From positions 124,001-188,000 of the forward strand of contig WFUF01000027.1 of NCBI GenBank assembly GCA_015485155.1: 64,000 nucleotides of DNA, given 5' to 3'. The notes beneath the pieces are model-generated. The model made no database searches. It was not told the origin of the DNA and saw only the letters and a program-made list of their open reading frames with translations. Shown piece by piece: positions 14,471 through 52,454 of this stretch. Within the stretch, counting starts at the first letter, position 1; every line of letters begins with the position of its first letter. This DNA is from Robiginitomaculum sp. Lineage in GTDB: Bacteria; Pseudomonadota; Alphaproteobacteria; Caulobacterales; Maricaulaceae. A program made the position numbers and the translations under genes.

Positions 14471-14850
14471 TGATTTACTCTTTCTGTTGATGGCTTGATG
14501 ATGGCTGTTTGTTCCGCCAGCCAGACCCTATCAAAGCCTGCCTCCACCTCCAAGCCCAAGCGTGCAGGTTCAAGCATTTTTTCTAATCAGCGGCAGGACA
14601 TGAAATATCCACAAGTGACGGTTTGGGGTCGGGTCACTCTTAAGGGTCACCGCGAAGGGTCAGTGCTAAGGGTAAGTGCTAAGGGTCAGTGCCATTTTTT
14701 GCTGTCCCTTGAGTGATACTTGTAACACCCTGTAATCACACCCAAAAAGCACTTCGTTATAATAAAACAACCCTTAAATGACCCTTGATGACACTAACTG
14801 ACCCTTCACATACGGGGATAAGTGCAAAAGGCACCCGCCTTTGCCAGAGC

Positions 14851-14859
14851 TGTTATAAT
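14851..14859 (+). promoter_or_regulatory. Extended -10 promoter box in element copy 1
   Basis: TGTTATAAT matches the extended -10 consensus TGnTATAAT and is identical at 52146 in copy 2. There is no good -35 hexamer at 17 bp, which extended -10 promoters tolerate. Predicted rightward transcription would start about 7 nt downstream. Confidence 0.6.
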
Positions 14860-14892
14860 GCAAGGGTTGGGGTGCCTTGTACCCAAACAGAA

Positions 14893-14903
14893 GCTCTTTG
14901 ACA
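14893..14903 (+). promoter_or_regulatory. boxA-like antitermination site, copy 1
   Basis: GCTCTTTGACA resembles the rRNA-leader boxA bound by NusB/NusE (E. coli TGCTCTTTAACA). It lies 39 bp after the TATAAT box and just after a small stem (TTGGG 867-871 with CCCAA 882-886, last three digits). The same order and spacing occur in copy 2. Confidence 0.5.
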
Positions 14904-15161
14904 GGTGAATATTCTTCCAAACCCGGTAATTTCAAGGGTTCTTATACGTCATGCGTGCGCGTAAATATCGGATTTGCCCGCAAGCAATTTTAGCAGGCAG
15001 TCGTATGAATCGCCTTTGTTTTTGCTCTTATCCTATGGGAAAACAGAATAAGCGTTTTTGCATTTACAGATTGCTATTATACGCAAGCGGGGAGCCGCAG
15101 AATGTTTTTATGCGTTACGCCTTGCTTTATGCCTTGCTTTACATTTCGGCATAATTTGCGC

Positions 15162-49249: not shown

Positions 49250-49687
49250 CTAGGGTGTGGACTCAATTGACCACTGCCTGATAGCGAAGATGTGTACCAT
49301 GGCTAGGAAGTTTCGAGAAAGCTTTTCGAAACGGGTGGCCAGCCTTCGCATATCCTTCATTTTGCAGAAGAACCGCTCAACGATATTGCGCATTCGGTAG
49401 AGGTTTTTGTCATGCGGGATCGGGGTTCTTGCATTTGATTTAGATGGAATGACTGCCAAGGCACCTTCGTCGGCAATGCGCTGGCGAATGCTTGCGCCGC
49501 CATAGGCTTTGCCTCCTACTATGGCCAACGGGTTGTTCAGACCATCCTCCAGCAAAGCAGGAATGACCTGACTGTCACGCACTTGGCCACCAGTGATAAC
49601 TACCTGTACCAATTGCCCTTTCTCGTCGACTATCGCGTGAACCTTACTCGTGCGACCTCCGCGTGAGCAGCCGATATCCTGCGCCAA
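49250..49687 (-). CDS. IS5-family transposase, C-terminal frame (OrfB)
   Basis: 145 aa as an ORF; real translation would come through -1 frameshifting from OrfA. Contains IGCSRGGRTSKVHAIVDEKG and the third catalytic residue, Glu, in RMRNIVERFFCKMK. The expected second Asp (usually ADKAYD or GDKGYD) is Gly here: VGGKAYGG. The element is therefore probably unable to move on its own. Its stop codon uses the terminal CTAG. Confidence 0.85.
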   Translation of the reverse strand: MAQDIGCSRGGRTSKVHAIVDEKGQLVQVVITGGQVRDSQVIPALLEDGLNNPLAIVGGKAYGGASIRQRIADEGALAVIPSKSNARTPIPHDKNLYRMRNIVERFFCKMKDMRRLATRFEKLSRNFLAMVHIFAIRQWSIESTP

Positions 49688-50084
49688 CTCCCCCCTTTTG
49701 CGCCGGTTGCTGCTCGATGGGTCTTAACGATAGAAGCATCAATGAACAACAAACTGTCCTCATTGGTTTTGGCCAAAGCTTCAAATATCCCGCGCCAAAC
49801 GCCCGGGCGCGCCCATCTGGCATAGCGATTGTAAACAGTGGTTCGTGACCCATAGTGCTCCGGCAAATCACGCCAAGGTGCGCCGGTTCGCAAAATATGG
49901 AATATCCCATTCAACACCCGGCGGTCATCTACCCGTTTCGGCCCTCTCTTATTCAAGGGTAATAGCGGCTCAATAATGGCCCATTCTTCATCCGACAAGT
50001 CAAAACGCATAATTCAATCTCCTTTTGAGAGTTTGAATCAGCGTTCGGTAATAAAATCGATTCTATGAACTGGGTTCAGACCCT
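49252..50084 (-). mobile_element. IS5-family insertion sequence (IS427-like group)
   Basis: About 833 bp between CTAG target copies (49250-49253 and 50083-50086). Terminal inverted repeats GGGTGTGGACTCAATTG and GGGTCTGAACCCAGTTC (read inward) match at about 13 of 17 positions. It holds two overlapping transposase frames on the minus strand. A second, isolated end of the same or a related IS lies at 51076-51123 in inverse orientation. Confidence 0.85.
49630..50010 (-). CDS. IS5-family transposase, N-terminal frame (OrfA)
   Basis: 126 aa. Starts MRFDLSDEEWAIIEPLLP, the usual DUF4096-type N-terminus, with GAPWRDLPEHYG following and the first catalytic Asp in LFIDASIVKTHRAA. The frame is left at the run AAAAGGGGGG (about 49687-49697); after it the OrfA sequence is no longer transposase-like. 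A -1 slip there joins OrfB, as in many IS of this group. Confidence 0.88.
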   Translation of the reverse strand: MRFDLSDEEWAIIEPLLPLNKRGPKRVDDRRVLNGIFHILRTGAPWRDLPEHYGSRTTVYNRYARWARPGVWRGIFEALAKTNEDSLLFIDASIVKTHRAATGAKGGSWRRISAAHAEVARVRFTR

Positions 50085-50174
50085 AGTAAAATGGATGATG
50101 AGGAACTTCTCACAATAAATGGGCGCCGCGTAGGTACCGGGGAGTGCAGCGATTTTTTGGTATTCGTTGATTAA

Positions 50175-51071: not shown

Positions 51072-51075
51072 TTTA

Positions 51076-51123
51076 CTAGGGTCTGAACCCAATTCATAGC
51101 ATTGATTTTATTACCGAACGCTG
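51076..51123 (+). mobile_element. Isolated IS end, inverted relative to the complete IS
   Basis: Starts CTAGGGTCTGAACCCA and matches the inward reading of the right end of the IS at 50086 over about 48 bp with three mismatches, then similarity stops. No transposase follows. It is a remnant of a second copy whose body was lost. Confidence 0.8.
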
Positions 51124-51487
51124 GAATTACGGTGGGGCGTCCATAGATGACAGTTTACTAAATGCACTTAATTATTTCCACCCTTCGTCCTGGGGCCACG
51201 TCTTTGATGTGGCTGGTGTATCCGTCTGCCCTGCCGGGCCTTCTACAGCTATTTTTCATCCACCGGATCAAAAATTTGAACTGATGTTCAAACTCTTCCT
51301 AAGTATCATTGGCCCGGACGACGATTATGATTTGTCAATGGATGCAGGCATCAAATATGGCTTTGATGAGTTTACTATTTGCGGATTCTTGTGGATTGAC
51401 CCGAGGCCCCACAACATCACCGACCTGATGGAAGCGGCCTGTAACGCTATCGAAGAGGTGTGGCTGGATGAACCAGCAAAAGAGTAA
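51122..51487 (+). pseudogene. 5'-truncated gene next to the lone IS end
   Basis: The frame is open from the IS end (WNYGGASIDDSLLNALNYF) to the stop at 51485, about 121 aa; a GTG at 51209 would give 92 aa. Acidic, soluble, with DDDYDLSMDAGIKYGFDEFTI and DLMEAACNAIEEVW. I do not recognise a family. Such small acidic proteins are common among Rhs-linked immunity proteins. The loss of the start at the IS boundary argues for a broken gene. Confidence 0.45.
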
Positions 51488-51941
51488 CGCGCTAAATTCA
51501 CCCGCTTTGCACAGCTTTGGTGCGGCTTTAGAAAGCTTTCGAAAGGGTCTGTGGGCGATTTTGGCAAAAATACGCCCCATCACAGCTTACATGGGCATTA
51601 TGGGCGCCAGTACGGCAAATTTTCAAGCGGGTTGAGTTTTGCAGCCAAAAGCTTTATCTTGGGAGCAAGAGGCGGGTAACTACCAACAGGTGGGAGCGGC
51701 CTTCGGGCTCTGCGCCGTACCACCCCCGCCTCTTTATTCGTCCCATCACAGCTTGAAGAGACGCCATCAACGCCAGTGCGGCAAATTTTCAAGTGGGCTG
51801 ATTTTTAGCCAAATTATGCCAGTGTCGCTCACGCGGCCTGAGGCATGGATACCCGGAAGGCACTCTGTCGATCCGTGTGGGAGCTTCCGACCCACCAGGC
51901 CGCTTCCATCATTTATTACCGATAACGGTGCCGCTAGTGAC
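51488..51941. other. Non-coding island stretch with a direct repeat pair
   Basis: About 450 bp. Holds two related 63-bp blocks (51573-51635 and 51739-51801). No gene is supported in any frame; the DNA is mixed in composition and looks degenerate. Confidence 0.5.
51573..51801 (+). repeat. Pair of 63-bp imperfect direct repeats
   Basis: Blocks at 51573 and 51739 share CATCACAGCTT near the start and CGGCAAATTTTCAAG near the end; 48 of 63 positions agree by hand count. They are 166 bp apart. They may mark a past duplication of cassette-like units; I see no integron attC features. Confidence 0.6.
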
Positions 51942-52145
51942 GGTCATTCTTAGGGTTACTCTTAGGGTCATTCTTAAGGGTCAGTGCCATTTTTCGCTGC
52001 CCCTTGAGTGATACTTGATATCCCCTGTAATCATACCAAAGCAGTACTTGTTGGTAATAAAATAACCCTTAAATGACCCTTGTGGATACTGACTGACCCT
52101 TGAGGATCGGGGATAAGTGGTAAGGATGCCCGCAACCTTAAAACC

Positions 52146-52154
52146 TGTTATAAT
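52146..52154 (+). promoter_or_regulatory. Extended -10 promoter box in element copy 2
   Basis: TGTTATAAT, identical to 14851-14859, again without a clear -35. Rightward transcription would run through the hairpin and the boxA-like site, then antisense to the ORF at 52239. Confidence 0.6.
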
Positions 52155-52186
52155 GTAAGAGCTGGGGCAAAACCCCCGACAAATAA

Positions 52187-52197
52187 GCTCTTTGACA
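52187..52197 (+). promoter_or_regulatory. boxA-like antitermination site, copy 2
   Basis: GCTCTTTGACA, 38 bp after TATAAT and preceded by a 4-bp GGGG/CCCC stem (52164-52167 with 52173-52176). The stem differs in sequence from copy 1 but keeps its place. Confidence 0.5.
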
Positions 52198-52238
52198 GGT
52201 AAATATTTTTCTCAAAACCAATAAAACAAAAAGGGTTT

Positions 52239-52454
52239 TCAACACTCATCTGCGCGCAAGCAAGCTGTCAGAAATTGCTTCTTGCTGGCGTGTTTTTCTG
52301 CTTTATCCGCTGTGGAAAAGCGTAAAAACATTTTATTGGAGGCTTGGCCGGTGTTTTGGCCGATCCTTGATATGACCTGATTATCAGAATTGCTGGTCAG
52401 GGAGTTGGTTTGCATGGTTTCCTGATTGCTCCGCGTTTTCGCGGCCGACTGCAT
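52239..52454 (-). CDS. Small hypothetical protein beside element copy 2
   Basis: 71 aa, rich in Ser, Thr, Asn, Gln and Lys, no signal peptide or membrane helix. The end reads FLRFSTADKAEKHASKKQFLTA. The frame is open a further 15 codons upstream without a start. I do not recognise a family; the composition resembles phasin-like or other amphipathic proteins, but this is weak. Its 3' end runs into the dispersed element. Confidence 0.4.
   Translation of the reverse strand: MQSAAKTRSNQETMQTNSLTSNSDNQVISRIGQNTGQASNKMFLRFSTADKAEKHASKKQFLTACLRADEC

Follow-up and report, generated by a model that had tools for sequence, protein, structure and literature searches.

Phased GGGTCA arrays in Robiginitomaculum probably control a multicopy small-RNA gene specific to the genus

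Results

Two phased repeat arrays lead into a promoter and a boxA

The window, a stretch of 64,000 nucleotides from the genome of a marine Robiginitomaculum sp. (G000), carries two copies of a phased repeat array, each followed by an extended -10 sequence, a boxA and a predicted non-coding RNA. The neighbouring genes with a Pfam match encode an acyl-CoA dehydrogenase, an enoyl-CoA hydratase, an aldehyde dehydrogenase and a transposase fragment, and no initiator gene was found among the neighbours of the two copies. The features of the two sites are listed here.

14629..14690, + strand: copy 1, direct GGGTCA-type repeats, five units phased at 13 bp, three of them perfect AAGGGTCA
14694..14757, + strand: copy 1, central conserved block (TTTTTTGCTGTCCCTTGAGTGATACTTG...CCCTGTAATCACACC...AGCACTT), conserved among the G000 copies
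14769..14806, + strand: copy 1, inverted array of CCCTT-type sites about 10-11 bp apart, two of them perfect TGACCCTT
14814..14824, + strand: copy 1, GGGGATAAGTG, recognisable across subgroups of the genus
14851..14859, + strand: copy 1, extended -10 TGTTATAAT, with TATAAT in 38 of 41 G000 rows
14866..15059, + strand: copy 1, predicted non-coding RNA of about 190 nt, its start placed from the -10 and its end from the T-run
14870..14884, + strand: copy 1, boxB-like hairpin between the -10 and boxA, suggested by its fold, by z-scores over many copies and by stem changes
14893..14903, + strand: copy 1, boxA GCTCTTTGACA
14919..14941, + strand: copy 1, second hairpin (AAACCC...GGGTT)
15027..15059, + strand: copy 1, CTTATCC..GGGAAAA core hairpin with T-run, predicted terminator
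51939..51983, + strand: copy 2, direct repeats, one of them perfect
52064..52101, + strand: copy 2, inverted CCCTT array
52109..52119, + strand: copy 2, GGGGATAAGTG
52146..52154, + strand: copy 2, extended -10 TGTTATAAT
52161..52335, + strand: copy 2, predicted non-coding RNA with a TTTATCCGCTGTGGAAAA core and a T-run weaker than that of copy 1
52187..52197, + strand: copy 2, boxA GCTCTTTGACA

In copy 1 the repeat units start at 14629, 14642, 14655, 14668 and 14681, exactly 13 bp apart; the units at 14642, 14655 and 14681 are perfect AAGGGTCA, and those at 14629 and 14668 read TCGGGTCA and AAGGGTAA. Copy 2 has GACGGTCA at 51939, TAGGGTTA at 51951, TAGGGTCA at 51963 and AAGGGTCA at 51976, the last alone being perfect, at spacings of 12, 12 and 13 bp. 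The inverted TGACCCTT follows twice in each copy (14779-14786 and 14799-14806; 52074-52081 and 52094-52101), and both copies contain AAGGGTCAGT and ACTGACCCTT. The original prediction of five direct repeats 13 bp apart in copy 1 and four at 12-13 bp in copy 2, a difference in unit number, with inverted units behind them in both, was borne out.

Nine AAGGGTCA occur in the window where 1.95 were expected, a number reached in none of 100 shuffles. The genome-wide motif scan that had been proposed as a check gave a large excess, with 240 AAGGGTCA against 52 for the reversed control and 107 GGGTCAN{5,8}GGGTCA pairs against one in the control, both counted among the matches listed. Copies 1 and 2 are 79% identical over 173 nt without gaps, and their likeness extends beyond the array, through the -10 and boxA. 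The array had been placed correctly, but it is not the whole element: it forms the left part of a longer, apparently non-coding unit of about 430 bp.

The unit recurs across the genome and within the genus

The genome of the window (2.39 Mb in 27 contigs) was searched at the DNA level and yielded 41 pieces, which were 73-85% identical to copy 1, barring copy 1 itself and one 31-nt piece. Their parts follow one order: on the left, direct GGGTCA repeats, a conserved core (CTGTCCCTTGAGTGATACTTG .. CCCTGTAATCA) and TGACCCTT sites 10-11 bp apart; in the middle, GGGGATAAGTG, the extended -10 TGTTATAAT, a short hairpin and boxA GCTCTTTGACA; on the right, another hairpin and a variable stretch, followed by the TTATCC..GGGGAAAA core and the T-run. 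Of the 41 rows, 38 have TATAAT and the other three are truncated at contig ends; among the matches listed, 35 rows extend to boxA, and 32 of them have GCTCTTTGACA without a mismatch.

We then searched with R1, a sequence-only model of the promoter and boxA (159 positions). R1 gave matches in 16 of 61 genomes, all within the genus (16/18, own genome included), and none in the 43 genomes of other genera of the family and order. Each of G000, G009 and G014 had at least 48 matches and G006 had 34, some of the matches being halves truncated by contig ends. The model was built from 26 rows, all but one chosen by a search expression that contained TATAAT and boxA, so the invariance of these two motifs in its rows carries no evidence. 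A plain DNA search of 41 genomes detected the unit in G000, G006 and, weakly, G009 only, and the wider spread in the genus therefore rests on R1. A pattern scan of named genomes located 32 loci in Robiginitomaculum MAGs (S012, NORP30, NORP327), and the same scan also matched one MAG titled 'bacterium' (SKS1.bin17); near relatives carrying the unit are titled Robiginitomaculum MAGs. On these counts the window's genome holds about 40-50 scattered copies as a lower bound, and the unit appears limited to the genus within the genomes searched. We found nothing describing these elements in the open-access literature, to which the search was confined (subscription papers lay outside its scope), and the genus-specific multicopy arrangement seems undescribed.

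For comparisons within the genus we used four subgroups: A, which includes G000; B, G009 and G014; C, G012, G015 and G016; and D, G002, G003, G004, G005, G007, G011, G013 and G017.

Copies are diverged and mosaic

The copies are diverged and mosaic, and distant species have few positions in common. The flanks of G006 elements are mostly 91-98% identical to G000, and separate parts of one G006 element often best match different G000 copies. Both flanks were matched for 9 of 30 G006 rows (L051 and L107 being one place), with L051 and L055 left uncounted for matches under 90 bp. L044 maps to one G000 copy, and L049 probably does likewise, its partners being G000 contig ends; for L047, L102, L046, L111 and L097 the flanks map to different G000 copies, with at least one interior copy in each case. 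Such re-paired flanks mean either that copies recombine or that short reads were misjoined. At least 18 of the 54 contig ends of G000 lie inside copies, which makes the units a main cause of the breaks in this assembly. Several of these ends have exactly 151 identical bases in common, and given both facts misassembly is a real possibility.

Between subgroups, 34 G009 and G014 copies (out of at least 96) were compared with the flanks of G000, and six had any match: three strong (>80% identity, >100 residues), one spanning 27 residues, and two distant. The boundaries of the unit are not sharp. An end match of at least 10 occurred in 3 of 51 usable copies (74 loci given), compared with 4.9% between the ends of different copies, and on this ground a MITE with terminal repeats was rejected.

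At L162 (G000:C17:6300-8400) the array is followed directly by a transposase gene, which we take to be IS1595-like. Upstream of copy 2, a 52-nt inverted repeat (50039-50090 and 51072-51123, 94% complementary, about 1 kb apart) adjoins an IS4/5-type DUF4096 transposase fragment (49630-50010); together they may be what is left of an insertion sequence. The left flank of copy 2 (about 51100-51700) is 88.5% identical over 602 nt to the left flank of L024 (G000:C27, about 73 kb).

The predicted RNA begins with an rRNA-type leader and ends at a T-run

The boxA GCTCTTTGACA is identical over 11 nt to that of the genome's own 16S (rrn) leader, and in the window it occurs only at copies 1 and 2. It is preceded by a hairpin, as in the boxB-boxA antitermination site of rrn type. 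In each of the four groups tested, the spacer from the -10 to boxA is predicted to fold more stably than its single-nucleotide shuffles, with mean z of -2.37 for 31 distinct sequences of G000, -2.3 for 13 of G006, -1.66 for 33 of G009 and G014, and -1.15 for 11 of G012, G015 and G016. In G000 the stems of this hairpin differ in sequence and are still complementary.

Counted from the boxA, the 140-nt bin contains a TTTTT in 22 of 39 G000 copies and 9 of 14 G006 copies. Among 33 G009 and G014 copies it lies at 140 nt in 14 and at 150 nt in 18, with a further T-run at 100 nt in 15, and in G012, G015 and G016 the T-runs are scattered over 140-180 nt (2, 4, 3 and 3 of 11). The predicted RNA measures 185-196 nt in G009 and G014, where the T-run was sought in a fixed interval and alignment A4 comprised 34 rows less L043 and L141. 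A separate alignment, A6, comprised 34 sequences less four. A promoter and a terminator of its own, which mark a stand-alone small-RNA gene, are thus present as far as sequence can tell, and from these signals we infer that the RNA may be transcribed and antiterminated.

The body of the RNA is less distinctive in its fold. RNAalifold gave no consensus structure for the G000 RNA bodies, and single folds were weak to modest (z was -0.41 and -2.15 in the two window copies and -1.96 in L017). Three named helices of G009 and G014 had 89.7% of their cells paired, compared with 34-61% when slid, and their covariation was not above that of column shuffles (366 of 500 as high). Rfam at its gathering score had no match in the window or in L040, and at E up to 1 over six loci it gave three matches, none overlapping an element, so a known RNA family was set aside. 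A separate 6S RNA candidate lies at G000:C19:52156-52314, with 42.4 bits just under the Rfam cut-off of 46.4. The core of the G009 and G014 RNA, TTTATCC[AG]CT..GGGGAAA, resembles the DnaA box TTATCCACA, of which L142 has a perfect one.

A converging gene usually lies to the right, and subgroup D may dispense with the RNA

The right-hand gene converges on the unit in 22 of 30 copies in A (G000), 23 of 27 in B, 10 of 13 in C and 15 of 22 in D, and strictly tail-to-tail gene pairs make up 13/30, 12/27, 6/13 and 8/22; open reading frames were called mechanically, and copies lacking a 100-aa frame on one side were omitted (11/41, 7/34, 1/14 and 4/26). With the right-hand gene mostly converging, copies as a rule do not drive downstream proteins, and a promoter for such proteins was rejected as their role. 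The median distance from the -10 to the end of the converging gene is 240, 236, 207 and 27 bp in A, B, C and D, so that in C the RNA roughly fills the gap, and in D there is hardly any room for it.

Sixteen rows of the distant subgroup D, from G002, G011 and G017 only, were read by eye. Fifteen of them have the array, GGGGATAA or a variant, and a -10, with no recognisable boxA; in the sixteenth, L183 of G002, boxA and an RNA-like body are retained. A GC-rich hairpin beside the -10 in G002 looks, again by eye, like the terminator of the converging gene. Since 15 of the 16 rows are without a recognisable boxA RNA, the RNA is not the constant part of the unit, and the array with its promoter may be.

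Similar arrays precede ruvC, beside a gene for a tandem-HTH protein

One G000 array is without an RNA gene and stands directly upstream of ruvC, the next open reading frame reading by eye as ruvA. This array (L128:553-1840, G000:C2) fills the divergent intergenic region between ruvC and a gene for a tandem-HTH, small-terminase-like protein. We located ruvC in 14 of the 18 genomes of the genus and read the full upstream stretch in 8 and the last 70 nt in all. By eye, array-like repeats stand upstream of ruvC in 12 of the 14, the exceptions being G016 and G005; in subgroup D they are CCCCTT repeats phased at about 11 bp. In 5-mer content, a soft test, the ruvC region was nearest to the arrays of its own subgroup in 12 of 14 genomes, with values of 0.46-0.58 against control means of 0.44-0.49; control maxima were higher, and some control windows overlap elements. 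The exceptions were G000, nearer to B (0.544) than to its own subgroup (0.523), and G005, best with C; G014 was nearly tied, and G016 fell below its control mean.

The tandem-HTH protein has 178-201 aa (141 in G010; starts were guessed), two HTHs and a conserved C-terminal part. It is encoded in 17 of the 18 genomes of the genus (as a fragment in G006), with one marginal match among the 43 others. In 11 of the 14 genomes having both this gene and ruvC, the two stand divergently on one contig; in G016 and G005 the tandem-HTH gene lies away from ruvC, and in G003 both genes are near contig ends. All 16 members searched match a PHROG small-terminase family (E up to 0.01), and Pfam assigned HTH_7 to 13 and Terminase_5 to 2. 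The gene order of a small terminase was not seen, the neighbour in those 11 of 14 genomes being ruvC and not a large terminase gene. A profile search covered 200 genomes of the order, including two from the genus; full-length matches came from those two alone, and 28 others gave partial matches, mostly to one HTH. Matches to the second HTH and C-terminus came from a sister genus (G021, G151, G160, G194) and from a small number of further genomes, G140 and G109 among them. The G194 relative directly precedes a large terminase gene and matches no Pfam or PHROG family at E 0.001; the array model, run in the sister genus on G021 only, gave no match there.

NCBIfam Cbp1 weakly matched 4 of 16 members, member 1 scoring 19.8 against a curated cut-off of 140 bits. 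Against solved structures the family profile hit 8vd6, a 'CAP REPEAT' entry, at E 8.8e-14 with no single stretch passing, and this likeness was set aside; a single protein gave nothing better than E 0.26. Read by eye, the promoters of the tandem-HTH gene across the genus repeatedly have a box like CTTATCC[AG]AC, placed about 15-18 bp upstream of a TAT-type -10, and the core of this box is the reverse complement of the unit's GGATAAG.

The tandem-HTH small-terminase-like protein is the leading, unproven candidate for binding the arrays. Two HTHs facing the same direction would suit direct repeats about one helical turn apart. The case is circumstantial: fast-evolving genes tend to look genus-limited, and the partial profile matches extend to the sister genus, in which the array model had no match in G021, the one genome tried.

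Discussion

We consider it reasonably probable, with ample room for doubt, that the phased AAGGGTCA array serves to regulate a multicopy small-RNA gene specific to the genus, with a boxA leader and a tandem-HTH binder. A DNA-binding protein would cooperatively occupy direct repeats in helical phase, spaced at 10-13 bp according to subgroup, and would either load RNA polymerase at the extended -10 promoter or keep it off, so that activation and repression are both conceivable. The transcript would start with the rRNA-type hairpin-boxA leader, which could be expected to recruit NusB/S10 and shield an untranslated RNA from Rho, and would run for about 190 nt to an intrinsic terminator, any role of the RNA itself being conjectural. 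The approximately 40-50 units, usually with a converging gene on the right, would exchange sequence among themselves. The likely binder would be the tandem-HTH protein, whose gene is divergent from ruvC across an intergenic region with a like array. The idea of a cooperative protein-binding array, put forward in the original prediction, has good backing in the sequence from the dozens of copies, the kept phasing, the large genome-wide excess and the arrays at ruvC.

The iterons proposed in the same prediction fare differently. Regularly spaced direct repeats with inverted partners do resemble a plasmid or prophage replication origin, but tens of copies across one genome are not one origin locus, the window copies have metabolic enzymes and a transposase fragment as their Pfam-matching neighbours and no initiator gene beside them, and in G000 the arrays lead into a promoter, boxA and predicted terminated RNA. 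Enrichment at plasmid or phage origins, which was to point to replication, was not seen in a search of viral contigs with one strict pattern from G000-type copies (no match). Copy number and neighbourhood led us to reject an iteron origin, to which we give almost no credence, and the viral-contig result likewise led us to drop a phage unit. Binding of the arrays by a known phased-repeat regulator, MraZ or another, we hold equally far-fetched. MraZ recognises three or four repeats with GGG in them, spaced by about 10 bp, but the mraZ promoter of G000 has TTCCCAT-type repeats and no GGGTCA array, and MraZ was discarded because its own operator differs there (mraZ upstream regions were read in G000, G009 and G015 and were poorly located in G002 and G011).

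A selfish dispersed element, mobile, non-autonomous and without host function, settling behind genes, is unlikely but deserves some weight. The mosaic copies, the array directly before a transposase gene and the small share of G009 and G014 copies with any G000 flank match (6/34, 3 of them strong) agree with it; the end-match frequency of 3/51 against 4.9%, with no terminal inverted repeats, counts against it, and the arrays upstream of ruvC, present in most of the genus, point to a role of the binder in the host. It is also rather improbable that the arrays are chromosome-wide protein stations, centromere-like or nucleoid-organising, to which the RNA promoter is secondary; ParR/parC, with its 11-bp repeats, is the natural comparison. 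Array copies in dozens, a phasing near one helical turn, the mostly converging right-hand genes and the 15 of 16 G002, G011 and G017 rows with array and promoter and no boxA RNA all suit such stations. Pure binding sites, however, would have no use for the boxA, hairpin and T-run that are kept in A and B and more loosely in C, nor for a -10 kept in 38 of the 38 G000 rows that reach it. A more speculative version, which we regard as a long shot, has a domesticated small terminase, with its second HTH and its place beside the gene of the Holliday-junction resolvase RuvC, read some 50 stations as recombination or pac-like packaging starts of a sequence-specific gene-transfer system, the boxA RNA being part of the machinery by opening or guiding the site. 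The contig ends within copies (at least 18 of 54) and the re-paired flanks of five copies between two close genomes fit this reading, but misassembly can explain both.

If the multicopy small-RNA gene is real, one genus runs tens of rRNA-style non-coding units from a type of cooperative array also used at ruvC. To our knowledge, a small-RNA gene family of such size would be far above what is usual. It would also connect DNA recombination with an orphan regulator descended from phage packaging, and would offer a natural test of boxA antitermination on short RNAs.

Parts of this arrangement are familiar from other systems. Tandem HTHs that coat repeated DNA are known from Cbp1, and the candidate binder likewise has tandem HTHs, but its NCBIfam score is far under the cut-off and no CRISPR context was seen. 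Cbp1 is the CRISPR-repeat binding protein of Sulfolobales (PMC10883916). The candidate resembles small terminases, including gp1 of gene transfer agents, in its HTH and conserved C-terminal part and in the PHROG match of 16 of 16 members, and its sister-genus relative adjoins a large terminase gene, yet matches no Pfam or PHROG family at E 0.001; it differs in having two tandem HTHs and in adjoining ruvC instead of a large terminase gene. RcGTA gp1 is reported to be without an HTH (PMC6854486).

Among dispersed repeats, the intergenic repeats of Rhizobium and Caulobacter are comparable. In Coxiella, MITE-derived sRNAs are reported to arise from dispersed intergenic repeats (PMC5896051). The unit is like such sRNA-encoding repeats in being multicopy, intergenic and diverged between copies, but it has its own array promoter and a boxA, no terminal inverted repeats were found in it, its array also stands before ruvC, and it is confined to one genus among the genomes searched. 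A parallel within the RNA is the rRNA operon leader with its boxB-boxA and Nus antitermination, which has the same hairpin and then boxA after the -10, with 11 nt identical. Unlike that leader, the unit has no rRNA behind it, and it combines a short predicted RNA, tens of copies and a phased array upstream.
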